Shown here in pieces: positions 31,146 to 42,355 of a DNA stretch of 64,000 bases. The stretch is from the NCBI RefSeq assembly GCF_003583365.1, contig NZ_QXED01000007.1, forward strand, positions 62,001 to 126,000. The letters are read 5' to 3'. The first letter of the stretch is position 1. The number at the start of each line of letters is the position of its first letter. Source of the stretch: Fibrisoma montanum. GTDB lineage: Bacteria > Bacteroidota > Bacteroidia > Cytophagales > Spirosomataceae. The notes beneath the pieces are model-generated. The model searched no databases. It had not been told where the DNA came from and saw only the letters and a program-made list of their open reading frames with translations. The position numbers and the translations under genes were made by a program.

Positions 31146-34100
31146 ATGTGGCAAATCTGGATTGATACCGGCGGCACCTTTACCGACGGCCTTGCGCTCG
31201 ACCCATCCGGCCTTTTACATCGCATCAAAGTACTCAGCAGCAGCCGACTGCGGGGGCGTTTGGTTGTACGGCCGTCAGCCAGCGGTCAGACGTTCCGTCA
31301 GACCGAATCTGAGGACCCCGCCAACCCTCATGCATTCATTCCCGAGCCCAGCGGTCTGACGGAACGTCTGACCGAGCTGGACACTCCTCGCAACCTCTCA
31401 ACCCCTCAGCCCTCAAGCAGCGGTCAGACGTTCCGTCAGACCGAATCTGAGGACTCCGCCAACCCTCATGCATCCGTGCCCGAGCCCAGCGATCTGACGG
31501 AACGTCTGACCCAAGCGCCAGTCCATTCGTTCAGGCTCGAAGCGCCCTGGCTTACAGCGCCTGTCTTCGACGGGTATCGGCTGCGCGTGGTTGAAACAAA
31601 CGAAGAATTCACGATTCATTCACTGACGGCCGACGGTTCGCTTCAGCTTGCCGATTCGGCCAATGGGGAAATTCGCCTGCCCGCCGGAACAACCGATCTC
31701 CCGCTGACCGTCGAGCTGTTCACCGGCGAAGAAGCCCCCGTGCTGGCGGCCCGCCTGCTGACTCAGACACCCCTGAGCCAGCCGTTTCCGCCCCTGGAGA
31801 TGCGGCTGGGCACCACCCGGGGTACCAACGCCCTGCTCGAACGGAAAGGCGGACGTGTTGCCCTGGTGGTGACGAAAGGCTTCAGGGACTTACTGAAAAT
31901 TGGTACCCAGCAACGCCCGAATCTATTTCAACTGGCCATACCCCCCGCCGAAGTCCTCTACGAAACCGTACTGGAAGTAGACGAACGCCTGACCGCCGAC
32001 GGACAAATCCTGACGGCCCTGTCGGATGATACCATCGCACAGCTTATCGAGCAGCTACAGCAGCAGCGACCCGATGCCGTGGCAATCTCCCTGCTGAACG
32101 CGTACCGAAATCCAACGCACGAACGCCAGCTCCGCGACGCCCTGGCAACTGCGGGATTTGATGCGATTACCCTGTCGACGGACGTATCAACGGCCCCGCA
32201 GTACGTCACCCGCACCCAGACAACCGTAGTCGATGCCTATCTGACACCGGTGTTAAAAACGTACCTGACCAATATTCAGAAACAACTGGCCAGCCACTCG
32301 CCAGTCCGTGACCATCCGGTCGGGGCCTATCCAGTCCGGGACCATCCAGTCCGGGTCATGACTAGTGCGGGGGGGTTAGTAAAAGCGGAGTTGTTTCGGC
32401 CCAAAGATAGTTTGCTGAGCGGTCCGGCCGGGGGGGTAATCGGTTCGGCGGCCATTGCCCAGCAACTGGGATTCGATAAAGTACTGACCTTCGACATGGG
32501 CGGTACCAGCACCGATGCTGCCCGCTACGATAGCCAGATGGATTACCGATTCACAACCCGCATCAGCCAGTTTGACCTGCAGCTCCCCTCGCTGGCTATC
32601 GAGACGGTGGCCGCCGGAGGTGGTTCGGTCTGCTGGTTCGACGGGCAGTTGCGGGTTGGTCCGCACAGCGCGGGGGCGAATCCGGGTCCGGCCTGCTACG
32701 GTGCGGGCATTCCCGGCCAGTCGTTGCTGCTGACCATTACCGACGTGAACCTGCTGCAGGGGAAACTGCATCCGGCTCAGTTCGGGATTCCGGTGTTTCC
32801 GGAAAAAGCCGAAGCCGCCCTGCAGCAGATCATTGACCAGATTGGCGATACCGACCGCCTGACGATCCTGCGGGGCTTTGAACGGATCGCCGATGAAGCC
32901 ATGGCCGGGGCTATTCGGAAGATTTCGGTGCAACGCGGCTTCGACCCGACAGACTACGCTCTGCTGGTGTTTGGCGGAGCGGGCGGTCTGCATGGCTGCT
33001 CCGTTGCACGGCTCCTTGGTATTGAGCGGCTGATTCTGCCGTTCGACGGAGGATTGCTCAGTGCCTATGGCATGGGACAGGCCCGTATCGAGCGCCTGGC
33101 ATCGCAATCGGTGTTGCAGCCGCTGGCGGAGGTAGAACCAACCTGGCCGGACCTGGCGCTGACGCTGGCTGCGCAGGCGAAAGACGAACTGGCGGCCGAT
33201 GTGGGCCCCGATGTGCCAATCGACGTAGTGTCGGTAGTGCTGTACATGCGCCTGCAGGGCCAGGAAACTGCGCTTCCGGTTCCCGTAACGGGCAGTTTGA
33301 AGGGTTCGTTATCGGAACCGTTTCGTGCCCATTACCAACACCTCTACGGTCACTACCCCGAAGGCCGCCCCATCGAAGTGGAAAGCATTCGGGTTATGGT
33401 CAGCACCGCTCCGCAGCAGACCGTCGTGAACCAGCCGCCTGGCAGCCATCGGCAGGTTGTCCCTGCTTTTCTGGCCGGTCACTACCCCGCCTACGACTGG
33501 ACGACCCTGCACGAGGGCGATACGTTTCGGGGGCCGGCACTGCTGCTCAACCGAACGTCTTCGGCCTTCATCGAGCCGGGCTGGCGAGTAATCGTTCAGG
33601 CCGACAAAAACGTCCTTGTTGAGTACATCGCCGATATCGAGGCCCCAGACGAGCCGGCACTCAGCGACCTGGCTCAGACCGAATTGTTTGCCCGGCGGTT
33701 CATGGCCATTGCCGAAGAAATGGGCGCTCAGCTCCAACGCACCGCCTTTTCGACCAACGTTAAAGAACGGCTCGATTTCTCCTGCGCGGTGCTGGATCAC
33801 CACGCCCAACTCGTTGCTAACGCCCCGCACATTCCTGTTCATCTGGGTAGTCTGGGCGTTTGCGCCCGGCTGGTGCTTGAACAACGACCAATCGGTCCCG
33901 GCGACGTCGTGATTACCAACCACCCCAAATACGGTGGCTCGCACCTGCCCGACGTAACGATGCTGAGCGGTGCCTTCACGGACGAGGGCGACCTGATTGG
34001 CTACGTCATCAACCGGGCGCACCACGCCGAAATTGGGGGTAAAGTTCCCGGTTCCATGCCGCCCGATGCAACCAATCTGGCCGAAGAGGGCGTTGTGCTG

Positions 34101-35309
34101 GAACCGCAGTACGTCGTAAGAAACGGCGTTTTTCGCTGGGATGGCCCCGATGGTCTGGCCACACGGTTTACGGACGCCCCCTACCCGACCCGCGCCCTGG
34201 CCGAAAATCGGGCCGACATCGAAGCGGCTCTGGCATCGCTCCGAACGGGCGAACAGGCCCTCCGCGCGCTCGTCGGGCAACACGGTTTGCCCACCGTTCA
34301 GCAATACATGCAGCGGCTCAAACAATCGGCAGCGACGGTGATCCGGCAGCGTCTGACCGCCGGTCCGACGCGGTTTAGCGCACAATCGTCTGTCAGTAAA
34401 CTACCTCCCAATCCGACAGCGCCAGCTCGTCAAACCTTCGGTCAGACGATTGGGCAGGCCACAGAATCCCTCGACGATGGTCATACCATTGCTGTCCATA
34501 TTACGACTGATCGTCAGACCCTTACGTTCGACTTCACGGGTACCTCGCCGGTTCACCCCAACAACCTGAACGCAAACGTATCGATTCTGCACAGTGCCAT
34601 TCTGTACGTACTACGGGTCTGGATCGAATCCGATGCGGCCGATGCACCAATGGCTTCGGGGAGTATTCCGCTCAACGAAGGCCTGATGGAACCCGTCCGG
34701 CTCATCCTGCCCGCATCCTCGTTTCTCAATCCGGTCTTTTCCGACGACGGCAGCGCCTGTCCGGCCGTAGTGGGCGGCAACACGGAGGTCAGCCAGCGCC
34801 TGGTCGATACCCTTCTGAAAGCCCTGGGGCTAGCCGCCTGTAGCCAGGGTACGATGAATAATTTCCTGTTTGGCACCGACGCCTTCGGGTATTACGAAAC
34901 CATCGGTGGGGGCGCGGGCGCAACGGTCGGCGCCAACGGACGCTCGGCGGTGCATCAGCACATGACCAATACCAAACTCACCGACCCCGAAGAACTCGAA
35001 CGGCGCTACCCGGTCCGGCTGCATCAGTTCAGCATCCGCGAGGGGTCTGGGGGTAGCGGCCGGTGGCGGGGTGGGGATGGTATAATCCGGGAGATCGAGT
35101 TCCTGAAGCCGGTGCAGGCAACGCTCCTCAGTCAGCACCGGGTCGTGGCTCCCTACGGCCTCAACGGTGGCGAGTCGGGAAAGCCGGGCCGACAGACCTT
35201 GCTTTATCCGGACGGCACCGCCGACGAACTGCCCGGCATTTTTACGCGGGCAATGCAATCCGGCGACCGAATCCGGATCGAAACACCGGGGGGCGGTGGG
35301 GTTGGCTAG
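31146..35309 (+). CDS. Fused hydantoinase A/B (5-oxoprolinase-like) with repeat-derived insertions
   Basis: A 1387-aa ATP-dependent hydrolase of the hydantoinase/oxoprolinase family. Residues 1 to about 835 are the HyuA part (IDTGGTFTDG at the N terminus, TRGTNALLERKGGR, GPAGGVIGS, DMGGTSTDAAR). About 850 to 1387 is the HyuB part (RTAFSTNVKERLDFSCA, NHPKYGGSHLPDV, then a terminal GGGGVG). It would open 5-oxoproline or hydantoin rings using ATP. Oddly, residues about 47-122 are encoded by two copies of a 90-bp inverted-repeat element, with peptide SGQTFRQTESED appearing twice, and there are smaller insert-like stretches near 385-403 (PVRDHPV twice) and 1090-1110. The frame stays open throughout. 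Whether the insertions lower activity is unknown. Confidence 0.85.
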   Translation: MWQIWIDTGGTFTDGLALDPSGLLHRIKVLSSSRLRGRLVVRPSASGQTFRQTESEDPANPHAFIPEPSGLTERLTELDTPRNLSTPQPSSSGQTFRQTESEDSANPHASVPEPSDLTERLTQAPVHSFRLEAPWLTAPVFDGYRLRVVETNEEFTIHSLTADGSLQLADSANGEIRLPAGTTDLPLTVELFTGEEAPVLAARLLTQTPLSQPFPPLEMRLGTTRGTNALLERKGGRVALVVTKGFRDLLKIGTQQRPNLFQLAIPPAEVLYETVLEVDERLTADGQILTALSDDTIAQLIEQLQQQRPDAVAISLLNAYRNPTHERQLRDALATAGFDAITLSTDVSTAPQYVTRTQTTVVDAYLTPVLKTYLTNIQKQLASHSPVRDHPVGAYPVRDHPVRVMTSAGGLVKAELFRPKDSLLSGPAGGVIGSAAIAQQLGFDKVLTFDMGGTSTDAARYDSQMDYRFTTRISQFDLQLPSLAIETVAAGGGSVCWFDGQLRVGPHSAGANPGPACYGAGIPGQSLLLTITDVNLLQGKLHPAQFGIPVFPEKAEAALQQIIDQIGDTDRLTILRGFERIADEAMAGAIRKISVQRGFDPTDYALLVFGGAGGLHGCSVARLLGIERLILPFDGGLLSAYGMGQARIERLASQSVLQPLAEVEPTWPDLALTLAAQAKDELAADVGPDVPIDVVSVVLYMRLQGQETALPVPVTGSLKGSLSEPFRAHYQHLYGHYPEGRPIEVESIRVMVSTAPQQTVVNQPPGSHRQVVPAFLAGHYPAYDWTTLHEGDTFRGPALLLNRTSSAFIEPGWRVIVQADKNVLVEYIADIEAPDEPALSDLAQTELFARRFMAIAEEMGAQLQRTAFSTNVKERLDFSCAVLDHHAQLVANAPHIPVHLGSLGVCARLVLEQRPIGPGDVVITNHPKYGGSHLPDVTMLSGAFTDEGDLIGYVINRAHHAEIGGKVPGSMPPDATNLAEEGVVLEPQYVVRNGVFRWDGPDGLATRFTDAPYPTRALAENRADIEAALASLRTGEQALRALVGQHGLPTVQQYMQRLKQSAATVIRQRLTAGPTRFSAQSSVSKLPPNPTAPARQTFGQTIGQATESLDDGHTIAVHITTDRQTLTFDFTGTSPVHPNNLNANVSILHSAILYVLRVWIESDAADAPMASGSIPLNEGLMEPVRLILPASSFLNPVFSDDGSACPAVVGGNTEVSQRLVDTLLKALGLAACSQGTMNNFLFGTDAFGYYETIGGGAGATVGANGRSAVHQHMTNTKLTDPEELERRYPVRLHQFSIREGSGGSGRWRGGDGIIREIEFLKPVQATLLSQHRVVAPYGLNGGESGKPGRQTLLYPDGTADELPGIFTRAMQSGDRIRIETPGGGGVG
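31284..31373. repeat. 90-bp element with perfect 21-bp terminal inverted repeats, copy 1
   Basis: The left end (31284-31304) starts GGTCAGACGTTCCGTCAG. The right end (31353-31373) is its exact 21-base reverse complement. The 48-base interior (31305-31352) is nearly the same in copy 2. It lies in frame inside the hydantoinase gene and resembles a small MITE. Confidence 0.8.
31422..31511. repeat. 90-bp inverted-repeat element, copy 2
   Basis: This is the same element as at 31284, exactly 138 bp further on. The left end (31422-31442) is identical to copy 1. The right end (31491-31511) differs by one base (GATCTG for GGTCTG). The 48 bp between the two copies encode a Pro/Ser/Thr-rich linker. Confidence 0.8.
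32301..32347 (+). repeat. Short tandem repeat inside the hydantoinase gene
   Basis: CCAGTCCGTGACCATCC (32301-32317) recurs as CCAGTCCGGGACCATCC (32331-32347), 30 bp apart. A partial third copy follows. It encodes PVRDHPV twice in a stretch that looks inserted between conserved HyuA motifs. Confidence 0.6.
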
Positions 35310-42109: not shown

Positions 42110-42355
42110 GGTCTGACGGTACGTCTGGCCTGATTTGAAACCGTTGCAACTGTAGTTTTTGGTCAGACCTTTTTTGAAACCGTTGATTTGTCATCCCGGG
42201 TCTGACGGTACGTCTGGCCTTTTGCTGATCGGTATATTGGTCAGAATATCGGTCAGACGTAGCGTCAGACCTTGTTAGAGCTGTCATTCCAGGTCTGACG
42301 CTACGTCTGACCGACTTTCGTTGACTATAATACTGGTCTGACGGTACGTCTGACC
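42110..42355. repeat. Cluster of five 21-bp GTCTGAC-type repeats
   Basis: Full copies lie at 42110-42130, 42199-42219, 42251-42271 (inverted), 42292-42312 and 42335-42355, with a half copy GGTCAGACC at 42161-42169. Each holds GTCTGAC (last unit GTCTGGC in two copies) twice, 12 bp apart, around a variable centre. Copies at 42251 and 42292 are perfect 21-bp inverted repeats with a 20-base loop. Short flanks such as TCATCCCG also recur. The last copy ends 20 bp before the epimerase gene start. Confidence 0.8.

Follow-up and report, generated by a model that had tools for sequence, protein, structure and literature searches.

The question raised by this locus is how inverted repeats came to lie inside the gene of a hydantoinase-type enzyme in Fibrisoma montanum, and whether they are a mobile element in their own right. 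The window analysed is a stretch of 64,000 nucleotides (contig NZ_QXED01000007.1, positions 62,001 to 126,000). Relatives of the HyuA-HyuB hydantoinase were found in 79 loci. The NCBIfam matches of the gene were caprolactamase and acetophenone carboxylase subunits, each under the curated cut-off, and its PDB matches were N-methylhydantoinase and 5-oxoprolinase. An earlier note on this DNA had described two 90-bp elements 138 bp apart, with 21-bp arms (one mismatch in the second copy), in frame, and more of the same 21-bp unit elsewhere in the window. As shown in Table 1, all of this was found in the sequence: the four 21-bp units are in frame, as two inverted pairs 138 bp apart, and a second cluster lies further downstream. 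In total, the window contained 9 unit matches at <=3 mismatches, compared with a mean of 0.00 in 100 shuffles.

Table 1 Features of the hydantoinase gene and of the second unit cluster, in window positions
Feature	Position	Strand	Basis
Host gene, fused HyuA-HyuB hydantoinase/oxoprolinase-type enzyme, 1387 aa	31146..35309	+	ORF
Palindromic unit 1, phase 0, reads GQTFRQT	31284..31304	+	Pattern search and ORF frame
Palindromic unit 2, inverted, reads GLTERLT	31353..31373	-	Pattern search and ORF frame
Palindromic unit 3, reads GQTFRQT	31422..31442	+	Pattern search and ORF frame
Palindromic unit 4, inverted, one mismatch, reads DLTERLT	31491..31511	-	Pattern search and ORF frame
Probable tandem duplication of the inverted pair	31271..31511	+	103-bp copies (31271-31373 and 31409-31511) 138 bp apart, 92% alike; single pair in F. 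limi
Low-confidence stretch, residues 43-122	31272..31511	+	AlphaFold2 pLDDT < 50
Second cluster of the 21-bp family, intergenic, 5 units	42110..42355	.	Flank-matched cluster in F. limi has 2 units

When the 231-bp hydantoinase stretch was searched against the F. montanum genome (7.79 Mb in 39 contigs, label G000), its only full-length match was to itself. The other matches covered at most ~38 bp, and nearly all of them included the 21-bp unit. The 48-bp interior alone gave just two short matches, with E values of 1.56 and 2.92. Because the arm repeats genome-wide and the interior does not, the terminal inverted repeats of the hydantoinase are read as members of a REP-like family of units, which form pairs in many places, the 90-bp element being one such pair. 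The unit is laid out as an imperfect palindrome of GGTC, an A.A mismatch, GACG, a 3-base loop, CGTC, A and GACC, and its 23-mer gave a DNA fold of -7.3 kcal/mol with a z score of -3.88. Among 173 units at <=2 mismatches, the A.A mismatch was kept in 151. In 8 of the 173, some of them orthologous or neighbours, the closing pair had changed from G-C to C-G; this form, 2 mismatches from the consensus, made up 5 of the 35 in-gene units described below (L148, L149, L178, L182 and L195). We favour the reading, at a probability of about 0.85, that these 21-bp imperfect palindromes make up a REP-like (BIME-like) family which expanded in the genus Fibrisoma.

At <=2 mismatches, 92 unit matches (41 forward, 51 reverse) were found in F. 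montanum and 88 in F. limi (label G001), counts in which nearly symmetric copies may appear on both strands, while a reversed-pattern control at the same threshold gave 0 in either genome. The stretches that were read, namely the window plus 34 loci for F. montanum and 37 loci for F. limi, held 85 of the 92 and all 88 matches. The units are arranged as single copies, inverted pairs and small clusters, mostly between genes: of 175 copies at <=3 mismatches, 125 lay outside called ORFs, 46 inside and 4 across an end, the gene calls being a codon-usage heuristic and not an annotation. Neighbouring units less than 150 bp apart were in opposite orientation in 73 of 93 pairs (40 +-, 33 -+), and the spacers of opposite-orientation pairs up to 150 bp apart ranged from 10 to 90 bp with no evident common sequence. 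An imperfect palindrome of 20-40 bp in many copies, mostly intergenic and frequently in inverted dimers, is what is called a REP in the broad sense.

The hydantoinase insert was compared with orthologues in 37 of the 79 fetched loci, those which could be aligned, and 36 of the 37 were without it, showing that the stretch is not a conserved domain of other genera. At this site F. limi carries a single pair, whose 33-bp spacer is unlike that of F. montanum. Because of this single pair, the second 90-bp copy of F. montanum is best explained as a tandem duplication inside the gene, and the idea of two separate 90-bp insertions was not borne out; loss of a pair in F. limi may be the explanation instead. 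One orthologue, L062, was 66% identical over its best segment, as high as Spirosoma, and its record label, Flavobacterium sp. SUN052, may be wrong.

Three further genes gave comparable results. For the alpha-glucosidase, 24 loci were fetched and 12 of them aligned. Both Fibrisoma species have an insert, of one pair in F. limi and three units in F. montanum, and it is missing from 10 of 10 aligned orthologues of other genera; in one of these orthologues, L320, flanking sequence was absent along with the insert. In AlaRS the unit is present in F. montanum only, while F. limi (row L293 of the alignment) and 26 other aligned orthologues are without it. Over residues 1-555 the two Fibrisoma proteins share 91% identity, and their DNA alignment shows a 36-nt gap; the loop that holds the insert varies in length among orthologues, and that of L289 is nearly as long. 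The methylmalonyl-CoA mutase subunit had no insert in 10 of 10 aligned orthologues outside the genus. The GlpD protein of F. montanum has 45 residues more than that of F. limi. The unit in the F. limi glpD occupies a position at which G005 has a native segment, LAEKLT, of equal length; the unit thus appears to be a replacement, which argues against simple insertion there. Inspected by eye, neither the hydantoinase site nor the AlaRS site showed a target-site duplication.

The structure of the hydantoinase insert was predicted with an AlphaFold2 model of residues 1-705, built from a 32-sequence alignment (mean pLDDT 77.5). The low-pLDDT stretch that contains the units sits between strands 35-40 and 127-132, which are both at ~84-90. 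The insert thus reads as a predicted disordered loop, low pLDDT being no proof of disorder. Elsewhere in this gene, in the HyuB part (window 34428-34460), a QT-rich stretch, ARQTFGQTIGQATESLDD, contained two overlapping unit matches at 5 mismatches. It is longer than in 13 other-genus orthologues readable there, which carry a native GQTF-type motif, and it is either a worn second insertion or a native look-alike.

After filtering, 35 units were in frame in 13 genes, counted over the two Fibrisoma genomes together. Not counted are the units in doubtful N-terminal extensions (L150, L168, L187, L196, L205, L206), the weak copies of L139 and L199, and one match of L147 at 3 mismatches. In a Pfam scan 9 of 10 host proteins had a match, L166 being the one without. 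The matches were alpha-amylase, FAD oxidoreductase (GlpD type), ThiF, AlaRS, GGACT, methylmalonyl-CoA mutase, SpoU methylase, MutS and S15 peptidase; L178 had no NCBIfam match, and L195 had weak epimerase-type NCBIfam matches only. Beside the units of L157, L166, L185, L175 and L178, runs such as TRSDATRSDA and SDRVTPDRD were observed, which look like amplified half-units, that is, tandem expansion of part of the palindrome.

The in-gene units were in phase 0 in 14 cases, in phase 1 in 21 and in phase 2 in none. The reverse unit has a TGA in phase 2; no phase of the forward unit contains a stop. The translated units are hydrophilic, reading GQTFRQT or GLTERLT in phase 0 and xSDVPSDx or xSDGTSDx in phase 1. 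For in-gene neighbours of opposite orientation, the spacer was divisible by 3 in 13 of 13 pairs, compared with 19 of 60 other pairs (p 4e-6 when counted by pair, the pairs coming from only six genes); the three same-orientation in-gene neighbours had spacers of 33, 46 and 25, 1 of 3 being divisible by 3. The base at the loop centre also varied with phase: it was T in 14 of 14 phase-0 units, 3 of 21 phase-1 units and 5 of 138 others, although these units are not independent of one another. Counted by gene, all four phase-0 genes (hydantoinase, alpha-glucosidase, glpD and MutS-like) have the T, and the F. montanum glpD combines a phase-0 unit with T and two phase-1 units with G. In phase 0 this base decides between Phe and Tyr or Cys in the forward unit and between Glu and Val or Ala in the reverse unit; in phase 1 it is silent. 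We read the T as selection on the protein, and shared descent of the phase-0 copies may explain it as well.

The age of the unit sites was examined by matching cluster flanks between the two species, within the fetched F. limi stretches. For 31 of 37 F. montanum clusters there was a flank-matched F. limi cluster, 25 of them matched on both sides, and most cluster positions are therefore not recent. The clusters without a match (6 of 37 in F. montanum, 13 of 43 in F. limi) may reflect either gain or loss. Ten matching cluster pairs laid side by side differed strongly in spacers, copy number and order. The units themselves were much more alike. At the matching positions L167 and L201, the two single units differ only at the loop centre, with one flank diverged. 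In six insert-bearing orthologous gene pairs, fourfold sites were alike at 1060 of 1687 positions (63%) outside the units and at 42 of 48 inside them (p 3.5e-4 vs the rest), 5 of the 6 differences within units coming from one pair, L166/L185. Within 150 bp of the clusters, 118 units had 0 mismatches, 34 had 1, 22 had 2, 4 had 3 and 7 had 4, with three variable positions masked; 5 and 6 mismatches were found 10 and 17 times, against a scaled background of 5.4 and 14.5. A family older than the species split and then decaying should give many worn copies, and the little decay of the units speaks against a dead REP-like family. That the units are near-identical at sites common to both species while the spacers turn over is the point least explained.

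These data suggest an alternative that we consider possible though unlikely, in which the units are putative sites of a sequence-specific DNA-binding protein and are kept by selection on the DNA. The candidate protein would act in chromosome organisation, as a nuclease or as a regulator, and the in-frame copies would be working sites translated incidentally. Such a role is compatible with a REP-like origin of the units, and it would fit the small number of worn copies despite the shared clusters, the likeness of the fourfold sites, the near-identity of L167 and L201 and the retention of the A.A mismatch. On the other hand, matching clusters differ in spacing, orientation and copy number, which is unusual for operators, and only a small share of the clusters falls between divergent genes (2 of 37 in F. 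montanum and 2 of 43 in F. limi, ORF-overlapping clusters counted in). In addition, the clusters were found through good copies with <=2 mismatches, and sites with every copy worn would escape. The units are either selected as DNA or kept alike by gene conversion or renewed insertion, which would equally keep the copies alike. A related reading, which we offer tentatively and think rather improbable, is that a palindromic DNA site system selected as DNA colonised coding genes, with one stretch serving two codes. The fixed positions would then reflect the DNA function, and the loop-centre base, phase and pair spacing would be fitted to the protein; in phase 1 the two strands of the palindrome encode almost identical peptides (SDVPSD/SDGTSD).

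The suggestion of the earlier note, two insertions of a MITE-like element of 90 bp bounded by 21-bp terminal inverted repeats, is very improbable. It accounts for two near-identical inverted-repeat blocks at 138-bp spacing, but nothing else in the genome matches the interior well, opposite-pair spacers elsewhere vary and share no evident sequence, and F. limi has its single pair at the same site round a different spacer. The repeats thus do not enclose a shared interior, and as stated the 90-bp unit is ruled out. The division of the stretch into two such elements is also arbitrary, because arms 2 and 3 form an inverted pair as perfect as the first one (in which the perfect repeat is 23 bp), with the same 46-bp gap. 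What stands is a small repeated element that lies in coding sequence, keeps the frame and is absent from other-genus orthologues; further copies in the genome were found, though of the unit and not of the 90-bp block. Finally, a conserved functional domain, or an ordinary low-complexity linker repetitive by chance, is hardly conceivable: the insert is disordered in the model and the site is variable in orthologues, as such a linker might be, but dozens of copies of the same 21-bp unit lie outside genes, none being expected by shuffling, which rules it out.

Under the REP-like reading, the hydantoinase pair would have entered before the split of F. montanum and F. limi and would then have been duplicated in tandem in F. 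montanum. The units may have arrived as single-strand hairpins in a RAYT-type process, perhaps driven by a transposase that has since disappeared, and unit sites would later have changed by local duplication, deletion and spacer turnover. Frame-breaking insertions would presumably have been removed by selection, and the in-gene inserts may be tolerated because their sites are flexible loops.

To look for a mobiliser, the PF01797 profile was used, which gave 1 hit in F. montanum and 2 in F. limi. No unit at <=3 mismatches was present in the 2.3-3.3 kb stretches round 29 PF01797 matches from six genomes, 4 of the 29 matches being below the family cut-off. The arrangement typical of a RAYT-mobilised REP (REPtron), the same REP flanking a Y1/RAYT gene, was thus not seen. 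Instead, the only PF01797 gene of F. montanum (L031, C11:299317-300106) is flanked on both sides by a different inverted REP, GGCCAAGC-N4-GCTTGGCC, which at <=1 mismatch occurs in 13 places in F. montanum and 16 in F. limi. Copies of this REP were also observed near a F. limi PF01797 gene, at C6:747931, 748620 and 748663. GTAG or CGTC tags within 2 nt of the hairpin foot were not a feature of the 173 units, where GTAG occurred 1 time forward and 2 reverse, GTGG 2 and 0, and CGTC 3 and 2. According to Di Nocera et al. 2013 (PMC3733652), no mobiliser is known for CGTC REPs either.

The family was compared with known systems as described in parts of the cited papers. The closest behaviour is that of the Rickettsia palindromic elements (RPEs), which are palindromic, intergenic as well as in frame in unrelated conserved genes, translated and thought to be tolerated; likewise, the Fibrisoma units are in frame in unrelated genes, and their absence from orthologues was established for four of the 13. 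RPEs are given as ~105-150 bp in portions of two reviews (PMC2229807, PMC10969869). Because the consulted text of PMC3733652 equates the RPE-4 and RPE-6 families with short CGTC REPs, size alone does not divide the Fibrisoma unit from RPEs; it is set apart from RPE-4 and RPE-6, as described there, by having no CGTC tag and by its Bacteroidota host. The GTAG/CGTC REPs in the same excerpts resemble the Fibrisoma units in being 20-40 bp hairpins, mostly intergenic and often inverted dimers with variable spacers, some copies lying inside housekeeping and repair genes, and the Fibrisoma units differ from them in the tag, having neither at the hairpin foot. REPs of RAYT (TnpA_REP) REPtrons share a hairpin with an interrupted stem. 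Subclasses 2.4 and 2.6 occur in Bacteroidetes, and REP insertion into subclass 2.4 transposase genes without frame loss has been described (all from sections of PMC6006769). In contrast to REPtrons, no adjoining RAYT was found for the Fibrisoma family, and the lone F. montanum PF01797 gene has another REP. PARCELs, in the part of PMC2996958 consulted, are also palindromic protein-coding repeats, but they are amphipathic tandem repeats of 25 residues each, and most of the ORFs that contain them have no assigned function, whereas the Fibrisoma units are small insertions into housekeeping enzymes. Palindromic inserts that keep the frame are documented, in the material covered, for Rickettsia, Wolbachia and an archaeon and, in the form of intragenic REPs, for several other bacteria. 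The Fibrisoma family shows this known in-frame behaviour, but without the known tags or a linked transposase found. No paper about the 21-bp Fibrisoma family was found in a literature search of open-licence papers by titles and abstract starts.

A free-living Bacteroidota genus with two genomes, and with filled and empty sites in housekeeping enzymes, offers a direct test bed. Two questions could be addressed there: by what route hairpins this short spread when no transposase is linked to them, and whether the unit sites are needed by the cell or only tolerated. The inserts also bear on how enzymes gain disordered loops.

Outside the genus the unit is rare. In the same taxonomic family, 13 of 200 genomes had a unit match of any number, and besides both Fibrisoma more than one was found only in G033 (19), G132 (7), G093 (4) and G117 (3), the last three being one genus. 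Single 2-mismatch matches in four loci of other genomes (L207, L215, L216, L217) were in phase 0 in seemingly ordinary genes, and because of these, matches at 2 mismatches may be native coding sequence. The copies of G033 are a variant, GGTCCGACGTWCCGTCTGACC, with C.T replacing A.A at the same stem position. The 19 matches of this sister family (loci L357-L375) are mostly single and outside called ORFs; a called ORF contains a unit in 3 of the 19 stretches, in two cases in phase 2, and in all three the unit either lies in a low-scoring ORF or is at or close to an N-terminus that is doubtful. Because its in-ORF cases are in phase 2 or doubtful, the variant is without the in-frame pattern of Fibrisoma. 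No stretch with the exact unit pattern was found in viral contigs. In the taxonomic order, matches at <=1 mismatch occurred in 3 of 390 genomes, the third being G353, with a single copy in a long ORF. G353 belongs to another family of the order, and its genome is 62% complete. Its sole match at <=1 mismatch, L376:2671, is a perfect unit in phase 1 of an open frame of 1591 codons and reads NFKNRSDGTSDPSDK; transfer, contamination or a small independent family are the alternatives for its presence there.
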